Shown: positions 8,998 through 26,393 of the stretch, one piece after another
Numbering within the stretch: the first letter of the stretch is position 1
Layout: each line of letters starts with the position of its first letter
IMG/VR virus record: IMGVR_UViG_3300020182_000122
Location: 1-31,751 of that record
Source: a virus
Strand: one strand, 5' to 3'
Length of the DNA stretch: 31,751 nucleotides
Program-made: the position numbers and the translations under genes
The notes under the pieces: generated by a model
What the model saw: the letters and a program-made list of their open reading frames with translations, nothing else
What the model was told of the DNA's origin: nothing
Database searches by the model: none

Positions 8998-9329
8998 ACT
9001 GCTTCTGCCCCGCTTGCTGTGATTGTGATGCCAGTGCCAGACGCTTCGATCTGGATTGTGTCACCAGCGTCTAAAATCTGCGTGCCTGTCCATTGGATGT
9101 TTTCTTTGCTGTCGATTGGGAAGTCATAGAATATCGCGTTGCCTGTGCCAGCAGAGCCAGCCGAAGGCACAAAGTAAATGCGATACGTCAAAGCACCCGC
9201 AGATGTGTTCACAATATCCAAGTTCTTCACAAAGGCACGCGTTGAAGCTGGCACCGTGTAAAGCGTTGTAACGCTTGCAGTGATAGCCGCTTGCCCAAGT
9301 TTAACTGGTGTAATGTCGTTATAAGCCAT
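8994..9329 (-). CDS. Small beta-rich structural protein candidate
   Basis: This 111-residue protein begins MAYNDITPVKLGQAAIT. The ATG at 9329 was chosen over an upstream in-frame start because GGAG lies 8 bases before it and it overlaps the preceding stop in a TGATG junction. The sequence is beta-rich (TSVTTLYTVPASTRAFVKNL-type, with DIVNTSAGALTYRIYFVPS). This type is frequent in phage head or tail decoration proteins of about 110 residues. It is translationally coupled to both neighbours. No enzymatic residues were seen. Confidence 0.65.
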   Translation of the reverse strand: MAYNDITPVKLGQAAITASVTTLYTVPASTRAFVKNLDIVNTSAGALTYRIYFVPSAGSAGTGNAIFYDFPIDSKENIQWTGTQILDAGDTIQIEASGTGITITASGAEAV

Positions 9330-10282
9330 CAATAGCACTCCAGCCAAATAAGCGTGTTCGATGTGCGGCCTGGATTAGCCACGTTCTGCCATCGAGTGTT
9401 TCCGCTGTCGTATTCCAAAATTTCACCGTCCGAAGGCGAAGGCGCTTGCACATCGTGCAGTTCGTCAACAGTCTCGCCAGTCTTCATCCGAACAAAGATT
9501 TCGCCAGAGCCGCCAGTCGCAGCGTTCAGAACAACAGCAACAGGCAAATCAAGGTTTGGCGCAGCAGGGCGGACGTTTGTCCATGTTCCAGCCGCAGCAG
9601 GGCTGAAATAGATGATGTCTCCATCGTTCCACGTTTCGCCATATGGCGTGCCGCTAGTATTAAACCCGCGCACCTTGCCAAAACTGGTGATATAGCCAAA
9701 GCCGTTGCTCGGGATGTCTTCGGTTGCCACGCCCATCATATAGAGCGCAGGCTGGGAACCATCAGCAACAGCCTCTGCGAACGTAAGCTTTCCAGATGCG
9801 CCAAGTGTGCCAGTAAACATGACTGGCGTGCCGTTCAGAATGTCACCACCAGATGCGTTCTTGGCGTAATACTGCGTCTCCTGACCGACTTGCAGCATGA
9901 CTTCATCGTTCATGCCAACGTCAATAGTCCCATCATCTTCGTTCCACTGCATCCTGCGCCCCAAGGCGACATGCGGACCAACGCGGTTAAAGTCGATGTA
10001 ATCCAGCTTCTGAAAGTTCTGCTGATAGCTTTCCGCTTTGTTCTGCGCAACGCCAGCATCAAATGCAGCGTTTTCAATCAAGATAGTATTAGCATCAATC
10101 GATGTAGTATTAGCATCAATCAAGACAGTGTTAGCCTCAATCAAGGCAGTTAGCGCCGCAATTTCACCAGGCGTAACACTACCAGAAACGATGAAAAGGC
10201 GTTCAAGCGCCTTGACCATTTCAGGATCATTATCAACGATGCGCGCAATTTGATTTCGTGTTGGGACATTGGGATCTGCCAT
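9329..10282 (-). CDS. Tail-needle or fibre candidate with heptad repeats (gp26 position)
   Basis: This 317-residue protein sits directly after the gp10-like gene, where P22 encodes the tail needle gp26 that plugs the portal channel. The N-terminus (MADPNVPTRNQIARIVDN) is followed at residues 46-73 by four seven-residue repeats of the form L-I-(E/D)-A-N-T-x, a likely short trimeric coiled coil. Then come a conserved-looking beta-rich region (residues about 90-260, with YYAKNASGGDILNGTPVMF) and a C-terminal tip. The globular beta part is much larger than in P22 gp26, so the protein could also be a short fibre. The repeats are directly visible; the needle role is inferred from position. Confidence 0.6.
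   Translation of the reverse strand: MADPNVPTRNQIARIVDNDPEMVKALERLFIVSGSVTPGEIAALTALIEANTVLIDANTTSIDANTILIENAAFDAGVAQNKAESYQQNFQKLDYIDFNRVGPHVALGRRMQWNEDDGTIDVGMNDEVMLQVGQETQYYAKNASGGDILNGTPVMFTGTLGASGKLTFAEAVADGSQPALYMMGVATEDIPSNGFGYITSFGKVRGFNTSGTPYGETWNDGDIIYFSPAAAGTWTNVRPAAPNLDLPVAVVLNAATGGSGEIFVRMKTGETVDELHDVQAPSPSDGEILEYDSGNTRWQNVANPGRTSNTLIWLECY
10074..10154 (-). repeat. 21-bp tandem repeat inside the tail-needle candidate gene
   Basis: Three 21-bp units (10074-10094, 10095-10115, 10116-10136) and a fourth, shortened by 3 bases, share the plus-strand core TCAATCAAGA...AGTATTAGCA. The unit length is seven codons, so it encodes heptads and keeps the reading frame when copies are gained or lost. 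Confidence 0.85.
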
Positions 10283-22996: not shown

Positions 22997-23259
22997 TCTT
23001 TTGTGGCAACCTCCCCGCCACAAGCAGCATATCCAGCCATGTCTATCCAATTATCGCAATGATATGGGTTGCCCCATGCTCTCACTGTCTTCAGATCAAT
23101 GAGCATAATTGCGACTTGATCTGGTCTGATTATTACGCCTAATCGAGCGCCCCAGATTGCCGCTATGCTTGCGAAGCTGTCCTCGATGTCACCGTGAGTT
23201 GCTGCCCGATCTACGCTTACACATTCACTGGCGTCCTCAAGTATTGAAACCCTGTTCAT
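22993..23259 (-). CDS. DUF6378-like protein
   Basis: The 88-residue product begins MNRVSILEDASECVSVDRAA. The ATG at 23259 overlaps the deaminase stop (ATGA), so the longer upstream reading frame is not used. The body has THGDIEDSFASIAAIWGARL, a LIDLKTVRAWGNPYHCDNWI stretch and DMAGYAA, which fit the DUF6378 family of small phage proteins. Their biochemical role is not established. The helical pattern with repeated acidic residues and a DNWxDxAGY motif is reminiscent of all-alpha nucleotide pyrophosphatases, and its place next to a dCTP-deaminase-like gene would suit nucleotide metabolism, but this is inference. Confidence 0.65.
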   Translation of the reverse strand: MNRVSILEDASECVSVDRAATHGDIEDSFASIAAIWGARLGVIIRPDQVAIMLIDLKTVRAWGNPYHCDNWIDMAGYAACGGEVATKD

Positions 23260-23702
23260 TGCCTTGCCCCTACTGGTTGATCTTCTTGATTTTGATACTT
23301 GCCGTTCCCGTATGATGCGGGTTCTTCTATGCGGTGAAAGATAGCCTGTGCGATGCCTGCACCTGCTGGGATGCGAAGCGGTTTCCATCCATAGTAAACC
23401 AGTTCGAGCGTGAGCCATCCGCGCCAGTCTGGTTCGATCACAGTGTTGAAGACTGACAGACCTTTGCGCGCCCATGTGCTTTTGTCGTGAACGACAGCGA
23501 CTAGATCCTGTGGCATGTCAAACTTTTCGATCGTGCTGGCCAGAGCGAAGCGCTTGAATGGGTGAAGTGTGACTGTTTGCTTGATGCGCAGATCATATCC
23601 AGCTTCTGACAATCCATAGCTGACACCATGCTCTTTCAGCTTCATGTCTGCCATTGGGGTGAGCGGGCGGGTGTCGTATAGCTTTCGTCCGTTGATAATC
23701 AT
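23256..23702 (-). CDS. dcd: dCTP deaminase / dUTPase-superfamily enzyme
   Basis: This 148-residue protein has the family motifs in order: YGLSEAGYDLRI (29-40), HDKSTWARKGL (72-82), TVIEPDWRGWLTLEL (87-101, with E100 in the place of the catalytic Glu), AGIAQAIFHRI (114-124) and YQNQEDQPVGAR (136-147). The family converts dCTP to dUTP as a trimer, feeding dTTP synthesis; some members also remove pyrophosphate, and some are plain dUTPases. It is shorter than the E. coli enzyme (193 residues). It overlaps both neighbours by 4 bases. It probably enlarges or adjusts the pyrimidine pool during phage replication. Confidence 0.85.
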   Translation of the reverse strand: MIINGRKLYDTRPLTPMADMKLKEHGVSYGLSEAGYDLRIKQTVTLHPFKRFALASTIEKFDMPQDLVAVVHDKSTWARKGLSVFNTVIEPDWRGWLTLELVYYGWKPLRIPAGAGIAQAIFHRIEEPASYGNGKYQNQEDQPVGARQ

Positions 23703-25243: not shown

Positions 25244-25804
25244 TTATTTATCACTTCCGCCAAATTTCTTCACAGAAAAGCCAGCTTGAGCCATGATTTC
25301 ATCTGCGCGCTCTTTGCTGATCCGCTCTCTGGGCTGCGATGCAATCAGCGGAACGTGACCTCTGTCGAAGCGGTTGATCGCTGCGCGTGCAACTATCAGC
25401 GGTCCAAGTTCTTTCTGGGCCCGCTCTGCGATGTCGCCTGTCATGGGCTTCTTGCGGCGATCTGGATTGTCTTTGCCGATCCACCAGCGAACAGCCTTGG
25501 CGATCGACCAAGCAGGGAAGTCTTTCAGTTCGTGATACCAATCATCTGCGATCGACTTCATCATGCCTTCGGAGATGTCTCCCTGGAAATACTGGGCAAG
25601 CAATGAAGCGATGCGTCCAGTGATCCACTTCGCCGGCGCAGGCGTATAGAGTTTGTTCATCGCCTCTTCGAGCGCGTCACGCTCAATCTTCGAAGCCAGC
25701 GGCGTATGAAGCAAATCCCGCCATGAGCGCGTTATGTCCTCCACCTGATCTGGTGTTGCGTGCGTTGGAAGTGTTTCCATTTGAATTGGTATCAGGTTCG
25801 TCAT
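25244..25804 (-). CDS. Replication-associated protein downstream of the initiator, helicase-loader position
   Basis: This 186-residue protein follows the initiator gene, as lambda P follows O. It has a helical core: PAKWITGRIASLLAQYFQGD, DDWYHELKDFPAWSIAKAVR and a WWIGKDNPDRRKKPMTGDIA stretch. Proteins of this type are frequent next to replication initiators in alphaproteobacterial phages and prophages and lack an obvious ATPase motif. A role as helicase loader is inferred only from position. GGGGAG lies 7-8 bases before the ATG, but the start lies 122 bases inside the initiator gene, which is an unusually large overlap; a shorter form starting at 25777 is possible. Confidence 0.6.
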   Translation of the reverse strand: MTNLIPIQMETLPTHATPDQVEDITRSWRDLLHTPLASKIERDALEEAMNKLYTPAPAKWITGRIASLLAQYFQGDISEGMMKSIADDWYHELKDFPAWSIAKAVRWWIGKDNPDRRKKPMTGDIAERAQKELGPLIVARAAINRFDRGHVPLIASQPRERISKERADEIMAQAGFSVKKFGGSDK

Positions 25805-26393
25805 TCCATCTCTCCCCGTTTAGCCACGTTGCTGCATGTGGAATAAATTGCTGTTCTTTGCTTGATAGAGCTTCGATCTGCCTGTTGAGGCCAGATGAGA
25901 TTTCTTCAACGCTTGAGTTTTTCAAGGCCTTTGCAAACGCCTTTCGAGCGTTTCCCTTTCCAACTTTTCTTGGATAAGCAGCCCAGAAATCCTCAAAATG
26001 ATCGTTATTATATAAAGGTTTTTTTCCAAGGTTATTATTTCCAAGGTTATGGGGGGTATGTTTTTGCGCCAGGGGGGTGGCGCATTTTGCGCTAGGGGGT
26101 GGCGCATTTTGCGCTAGGGGTTCAGTAAGGCACAGGATGTATTGGGTGCTTGTTTGAGAACCGTTTTCGCGCTGTCTTCTATTGCGCTCGATCAGCCCGC
26201 AGTTTTCAAGGCTTATGAGGTGTCGCTTCACCGTAGCCACATCCATCTCGCATTCATTAGCGAGCGTTTTTAAACTAGGAAAACACATTCCAGTTTCGCC
26301 ATTGTGGTGATCCGCCAACCAATAAAGCACAATCTTCGCGGCTGGCTTCAGCCCCTTTTGCTTCATTGCGAGCGCTGTCATGTAGTGGCTCAT
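25683..26393 (-). CDS. Replication initiator, lambda O-like, with winged helix
   Basis: The 236-residue protein has a winged-helix domain at its N-terminus (residues about 10-90: GLKPAAKIVLYWLADHHNGE, CFPSLKTLANECEMDVATVK RHLISLENCGLIER), a variable middle encoded by the iterons, and a C-terminal region with FEDFWAAYPRKVGKGNARKA and the phage-replication motif FIPHAATWLNGERW. This architecture resembles O-type initiators that bind repeats in their own gene. The ATG at 26393 is preferred to 26399 because AGGA has better spacing. It probably binds the origin inside the gene and recruits host helicase through the downstream protein. Confidence 0.8.
   Translation of the reverse strand: MSHYMTALAMKQKGLKPAAKIVLYWLADHHNGETGMCFPSLKTLANECEMDVATVKRHLISLENCGLIERNRRQRENGSQTSTQYILCLTEPLAQNAPPPSAKCATPLAQKHTPHNLGNNNLGKKPLYNNDHFEDFWAAYPRKVGKGNARKAFAKALKNSSVEEISSGLNRQIEALSSKEQQFIPHAATWLNGERWNDEPDTNSNGNTSNARNTRSGGGHNALMAGFASYAAGFED
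25991..26116. other. Candidate replication origin: iterons plus AT-rich block in the initiator gene
   Basis: Two exact 21-bp iterons (26074-26094 and 26096-26116; 22-bp period) each contain the inverted repeat GCGCA-AAA-TGCGC on the minus strand. A third, degenerate copy lies at 26053-26071. In the reading direction of the gene, an AT-rich stretch (25991-26050) with a 12-bp direct repeat TTCCAAGGTTAT (26024-26035 and 26039-26050) follows. Lambda has the same arrangement: iterons, then an AT-rich region, inside gene O. Confidence 0.7.

Follow-up and report, generated by a model that had tools for sequence, protein, structure and literature searches.

Initiator gene, iterons and AT-rich block

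The window is the whole stretch of DNA analysed, the 31,751 nucleotides of IMG/VR virus record IMGVR_UViG_3300020182_000122. Matches to P22-like portal, coat, scaffold, terminase and DNA-transfer proteins agree with its earlier assignment to a podovirus. The features of its replication region are listed in Table 1. The product of the initiator gene matches HTH_36 (PF13730) at residues 16-70 (E = 3e-16, 59.4 bits, curated cut-off 25) and phrog_270, a 'replication initiation protein' family, at residues 3-215 (E = 1.2e-48). Phage_rep_O (PF04492) is not among its family matches, while lambda O hits that family with 5.7e-36 in the same library. DnaD_N (PF21984) stays under its cut-off (15.5 bits vs 27). 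RepC of repABC replicons is likewise an alphaproteobacterial winged-helix initiator with the origin inside its own gene, but the score of the window initiator for the corresponding family RP-C (PF03428) lies below the cut-off (18.6 vs 24.4 bits). A fold search retrieved generic winged helices and a fold similar to the DnaD amino terminus (2v79), and the PDB sequence search gave no match. In the AlphaFold2 model the winged helix (residues 1-90) has mostly pLDDT values above 90, the linker (residues 96-127) mostly below 50 and the helices at residues 131-194 above 90. Judged from these matches, the protein belongs by family to the HTH_36/phrog_270 initiators, not to the lambda O proteins, and is lambda-O-like in its architecture.

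Table 1. Features of the replication region and their positions in the window
Feature	Position	Strand	Remarks
Initiator gene	26399-25683	minus	238-aa ORF; winged-helix N-terminus, disordered linker, helical C-terminal domain
Iteron 1	26116-26095	minus	TAGCGCAAAATGCGCCACCCCC, exact; dyad GCGCAAAATGCGC at 26102-26114
Iteron 2	26094-26073	minus	identical to iteron 1; dyad at 26080-26092
Iteron 3	26072-26051	minus	CTGGCGCAAAAACATACCCCCC, degenerate; left half-site kept, right arm lost
AT-rich block	26003-26050	minus	candidate DNA unwinding element; carries AACC boxes; period-15 array
AACC box 1	26048-26039	minus	AACCTTGGAA; codon conservation
AACC box 2	26033-26024	minus	AACCTTGGAA; 15 nt from box 1
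Third AACC	26020-26017	minus	13 nt beyond box 2; less conserved
Next gene	25244-25804	minus	ORF up to 186 aa; overlaps initiator 3' end

An iteron array is found between the winged-helix and the carboxyl-terminal parts of the ORF. Its first two copies are 22 bp long, spaced by 22 bp and 100% identical, each with the inverted repeat GCGCA-AAA-TGCGC, and Tandem Repeats Finder independently reports an array of period 22 at 26062-26120. The first-pass annotation had already placed these two exact iterons, with one more degenerate copy, in the central part of the gene, correctly in position and detail. The iterons encode different peptides (PLAQNAP, PPSAKCATP and PLAQKHTP) and, since 22 is no multiple of 3, the array repeats DNA and not peptide; a reading as a peptide repeat is ruled out by this period. 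Iterons and boxes together encode residues 96-127, the linker predicted to be disordered, so that the DNA of the putative origin can vary freely. An exact search of IMG/VR with the window iteron found one near-identical contig only; the iteron is private and a motif search alone therefore shows nothing.

The AT-rich block adjoins the iterons downstream in the reading direction of the initiator gene. Nowhere in the 31.7 kb is a 49-nt segment richer in AT than those starting at 25993-25996 (77.6% AT vs 49.5% overall), and positions 26003-26051 have 73.5% AT. Tandem Repeats Finder reports a second array here (26004-26050, period 15), in which the 12-mer TAACCTTGGAAA occurs twice on the minus strand with a 15-bp period, the direct repeat that had been noticed before. 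The sequence TAACCTTGGAA is absent elsewhere in the window even with one mismatch allowed; 0.34 matches are expected by chance and at least two occur in 1 of 100 shuffles. A promoter reading of the block, suggested by a TATAAT at its end in the window, was dropped as this motif is not kept in relatives on inspection by eye. The order of initiator domain, iterons and AT block is that of ori-lambda, and this part of the earlier proposal of a lambda-like origin within an O-like gene stands; its family assignment does not, the protein belonging to PF13730/phrog_270 and not to PF04492. The sign of the GC skew changes near 27-28.5 kb, but the skew is of no help in placing the origin because gene orientation changes at the same place.

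The ORF that follows the initiator gene has no significant match in Pfam, PHROGs or NCBIfam and is a candidate helicase loader by its position only. Several related loci encode unrelated-looking proteins of 168-177 amino acids at this downstream position; some of them share an SR-S/T-WP motif and are possibly helicase loaders.

Exchange of winged helix and iterons among relatives

The region was compared in 111 non-redundant IMG/VR relatives that reach past it, including the window. All have three iterons at the same place, of about a dozen types that sort by the recognition helix of the initiator (Table 2). The third iteron is better preserved in most relatives than in the window and lies at the same distance from the AT block.

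Table 2. Recognition helices and the palindromes of the accompanying iterons
Recognition helix	Palindrome
MDVATVKRHL (window)	GCGCAAAATGCGC
MDRSTVVRHL	TGTTGCAAAATGCGAC
MSRRSVEGHL	ATACGCAAAATCTGCGCAT
MSKRAVQGHI	TGGCAGAATCTGCCA
MTDRSVRTHL	GGAAAATATTTCC
MSRQSIINNI	ATGTCAAAAATTTGGACA
MGKTALVGHL	TGTTCGGAATGCGGACA

Distances between iteron regions correlate with those between recognition helices (r = 0.64). The correlation is kept after correction for the carboxyl terminus and for the other parts of the winged-helix domain (partial Mantel r = 0.58, a value matched in none of 2000 permutations), in a test that leaves in some of the shared ancestry of a set that includes related sequences. The partial correlation of the iterons with the carboxyl-terminal domain is 0.09. 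With the rest of the winged-helix domain it is 0.50, nearly as high as for the helix, as expected if the whole winged-helix domain behaves as a cassette; no claim is made for single reader residues in the helix. A set of 106 initiator pairs combines carboxyl-terminal domains of more than 75% identity with helices in which over 40% of the positions differ. Their mean iteron distance is 0.84, as in unrelated pairs, while pairs alike in both carboxyl terminus and helix have a mean distance of 0.25. Because helix-unlike pairs with like carboxyl termini have unlike iterons, winged helix and iterons travel together and are exchanged as one module. Covariation of the iterons with the winged-helix domain, proposed earlier as a check, is thus borne out, and no close relative that extends beyond the site lacks iterons. 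The relatives L243-L248 have a Labrenzia-type winged helix with its own iterons and a carboxyl-terminal domain nearly identical to that of L028, a natural chimera.

No such covariation with the iterons is seen in the AT block. Two pairs of close relatives, L004/L123 and L005/L169, have TGTTGCAAAACGCAACA and GGAAAATATTTCC palindromes where the window has GCGCAAAATGCGC, and the block CATAACCTTGGAAATAATAACCTTGGAAA is almost unchanged in both despite the new palindromes. With few exceptions among the 111 genes, box 2 follows box 1 at a distance of 15 nt. The centre of the third palindrome typically lies 14 nt before box 1 (9-13 nt in some classes). The AT block is, by this comparison, the most conserved DNA of the proposed origin and its more novel part; the direct repeat of the first-pass annotation is there, but the block that harbours it is not filler.

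Such conservation might also be understood if the block were kept mainly as a recombination joint for the exchange of winged-helix/iteron cassettes and not for replication. Module swaps do break at or near the AT block, which is alike between relatives with different flanking sequences. A joint, however, needs no tandem boxes of fixed period and need not recur in other reading frames of distant phages, as the boxes do (see below), which makes this explanation highly improbable as the main cause of conservation. A role as recombination joint may be a secondary effect.

AACC boxes in the AT-rich block

Codon use in the boxes was analysed in 47 representatives found by protein similarity only; some of the 111 relatives had entered by motif search and were excluded. 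In box 1, Asn is encoded by AAC in 47/47 genes. Leu is encoded by CTT in 36/43 (box 1) and 39/40 (box 2) cases, compared to 19% expected from the same genes, and Gly by GGA in 27/27 and 42/42 (25% expected). Where the Gly of box 1 is replaced by Val, in 19 proteins, the codon is always GTA. The probability of this codon use is about 1e-15 to 1e-27 per column, and the four columns of the gene with the greatest excess of codon uniformity are the box codons. The AACC boxes are thus, as read from codon choice, fixed at the DNA level, with one codon almost exclusive.

The boxes could instead simply follow from the conservation of a linker peptide (NLG-NNLG, EPV-EPV), without any DNA signal. Synonymous reshuffling of single genes indeed often yields AACC runs (p 0.09-0.7 for most), in a test that has little power and is not relied on. 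This explanation is nevertheless extremely unlikely: the codon choice of the boxes is nearly fixed against the use in the gene as a whole, the third base stays A while Gly and Val alternate in the protein, AACC occurs in all three frames (N-L-G, E-P-V, T-S-N) and the linker is predicted to be disordered.

The occurrence in different frames is seen among distant phages, of alpha- and gammaproteobacterial type and in part actinobacterial. Two further scans with Labrenzia-phage and Salmonella-phage initiators as queries gave an alphaproteobacterial-type and a gammaproteobacterial-type set, in which ACTAACCCTGTAAGGGAACCTCTAAGTAAACCAGTAAAG and CCAGAACCAGTCACTCTTTTGAACCAGTCAAAGAACC follow quite different iterons. 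The alpha set has its AACC words in frames 0,1,1 or 2,2,2 and the gamma set in frames 2,1,1, with N-P-V, E-P-V or T-S-N as their translations depending on the frame. Arthrobacter phage Jamun has four copies of AACCGTCC in three frames and Psychrobacter phage Y8A has AACCTATCAATG repeats. In 18 phage initiators AACC runs exceed those of dinucleotide shuffles (Fisher p = 2e-8), while GGTT and ACCA runs in the same genes show no excess. Lambda O and P22 gp18 have no AACC excess and no such block.

Since the AACC motif was recognised after seeing data, its only fresh test is a set of 24 previously unseen HTH_36 genes, collected with disregard of the motif from alpha- and gammaproteobacterial genomes, the classes to which Thalassobacter and Shewanella belong. 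Runs of at least three AACC with 9-17 nt spacing are present in 8 of these genes, compared to 0.2 expected, and AACC ranks first among the 256 tetramers. Boxes are absent from the HTH_36 initiators of Leuconostoc LLC-1, Corynebacterium phi16 and Caulobacter Sansa. No description of AACC boxes was found in the open-access literature, searched also directly for the box sequences. The data suggest that the boxes are a shared and apparently undescribed opening signal, as far as gene sequences can tell.

Boxes and iteron arrays tend to occur together. In a larger HTH_36 set that includes genes already seen, boxes are found in 19/32 genes with iteron arrays and in 3/21 without (p = 0.001), the latter coding for short, regulator-like proteins. 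This association bears on the possibility that the iterons are operators for autoregulation of the initiator's operon, with the origin elsewhere. Winged-helix proteins of this fold are mostly regulators and binding within a gene could serve as a roadblock; yet the protein falls in a PHROGs class of replication initiators, its array is coupled at fixed spacing to the most AT-rich DNA of the phage, and the regulator-like proteins without array mostly lack the boxes. A purely regulatory role of the iterons is therefore very unlikely.

Two variations on the repeats were observed in other phages. AACA-type repeats (AACAGTAGG, AACAAGTAA, AACAGGAA) replace the boxes in Bcep176, Vibrio PVA1 and others (L551, L548, L427, L565). 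AACC runs, such as AACCAGAACCAGAACCAGAACC, precede the carboxyl-terminal domain in DUF1376-like initiators without HTH_36 (L369, L010, L011, L555), which include those of Octadecabacter DB virus 2, Azospirillum phage Cd and relatives.

A proposed replication origin and its relation to known systems

The region is very probably the DNA replication origin of the phage, as its sequence organization indicates, and the comparison of initiators supports this lambda-like reading well. The reading that we favour, and consider quite probable, is an origin inside the initiator gene in which the iterons would be a specificity cassette and the AACC boxes a shared unwinding signal. Its architecture, the covariation and the conservation of the boxes as DNA are the parts that the sequences show directly. 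The initiator would bind the palindromic iterons through its own winged-helix domain. The iterons would set which protein works at which origin and would evolve with the winged helix as an exchangeable cassette. By analogy with lambda, the bound initiator would bend the DNA and melt the AT block about 14 bp away. The initiator or a shared replication protein might then capture one specific strand of the opened boxes, the least certain step, and the replicative helicase would be loaded. The AT block would be the DNA unwinding element and the AACC boxes a sequence-specific signal common to many HTH_36-type phage initiators, whatever their iterons.

The recognition helix and the carboxyl-terminal domain vary while the boxes are constant, so that the boxes are likely read either by some other conserved region of the initiator or by a replication protein conserved among hosts. 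That a conserved factor of the host (such as DnaA, a primosome protein or RNA polymerase), and not the initiator, has its sites in the boxes is a variant of the favoured reading that is possible though rather doubtful. The boxes are common to initiators that differ in carboxyl-terminal domain and recognition helix, neither of which explains them, as this variant would have it, but the boxes were not seen to resemble any known host site, and the hosts of box-bearing phages span different phyla.

The architecture of ori-lambda is the closest parallel. There too the origin lies in the middle of the initiator gene, and palindromic iterons of about 20 bp precede an AT-rich block, with order and reading direction as in the window (PMC5043065). 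Lambda O binds the iterons, bends them and opens the adjoining AT-rich DNA (PMC7466680; PMC5043065); the smallest unit that unwinds consists of two iterons and the AT-rich region, and the O protein binds AT-rich DNA in single-stranded form (PMC7466680). The lambda system differs from that of the window by the family of its initiator (PF04492 vs PF13730), by iterons of unlike sequence, as already pointed out in the first-pass annotation, and by an AT block devoid of AACC boxes, in which ACACAAAAGACA-type repeats common to lambda and P22 are found instead. Gene 18 of Salmonella phages P22 and L codes for distantly related initiators, each of which has particular iterons within its coding sequence (PMC8022706). 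P22 gp18 is annotated as lambda-O-like, and its gene has no boxes. The AT blocks of lambda (L509) and P22 (L510) share the repeat ACACAAAAGACA.TAT.ACAAAAGA despite different iterons. It may therefore be a general rule that a constant opening element lies beside variable iterons, with a different word in each initiator family.

The HTH_36 initiators of gamma phages (e.g. Salmonella phage SI8; phrog_270/391/1032) resemble that of the window in family, in intragenic iterons and in AACC boxes directly after them. They differ in iteron sequence and in their boxes, which are AACCAGTCA with 17 and 12 nt spacing in other frames, compared to AACCTTGGAA and 15 nt in the window. The plasmid initiators TrfA and RepE have two winged-helix domains, and their iterons are usually outside the gene. 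In RK2 (TrfA) and F (RepE) these winged-helix initiators bind duplex iterons and one strand of a repeated sequence of the unwinding element, and in RK2 all repeats of this element are required (PMC4081077). The RK2 repeats are 13-mers and not AACC boxes.

It is conceivable, though somewhat less likely than not, that the AACC boxes represent a general, unnamed unwinding-element code of HTH_36 phage initiators in several bacterial phyla, the phage counterpart of the DnaA-trio or of plasmid 13-mers. They would be read as a specific single strand after melting, and iteron/winged-helix cassettes could be exchanged without rebuilding the opening machinery. Origins within initiator genes and different iterons in related phages are known already. 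Natural iteron/winged-helix pairs, over 100 in number and all at one fixed place, provide a data set from which the rules of DNA recognition by this domain could be derived and compatible replicons built. With a DNA word conserved across iteron types, carboxyl-terminal types, frames and host phyla, where and on which strand initiators open DNA becomes an answerable question.

A search for AACC pairs in a genome set of 84,980 species found one true relative, in Thalassobacter; other matches were outside winged-helix genes, mostly in simple-repeat DNA, and were discarded. Contig NZ_CYRX01000025 of Thalassobacter stenotrophicus (L205), probably a prophage, carries an initiator of the window type with its iterons and boxes. 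This initiator type was found in no other bacterial genome, in keeping with the alphaproteobacterial origin supposed earlier, and the host of the phage is probably a member of the Rhodobacteraceae. The same Thalassobacter genome codes for other HTH_36 initiators (L512-L514), whose iterons and boxes are of the Rhizobiales type. Elsewhere in the window a dUTPase/dCTP-deaminase-like gene (23256-23702) is found downstream of the replication region, and a 21-bp tandem repeat of 3.4 copies (10074-10145) lies in the minus-strand ORF 9329-10282.
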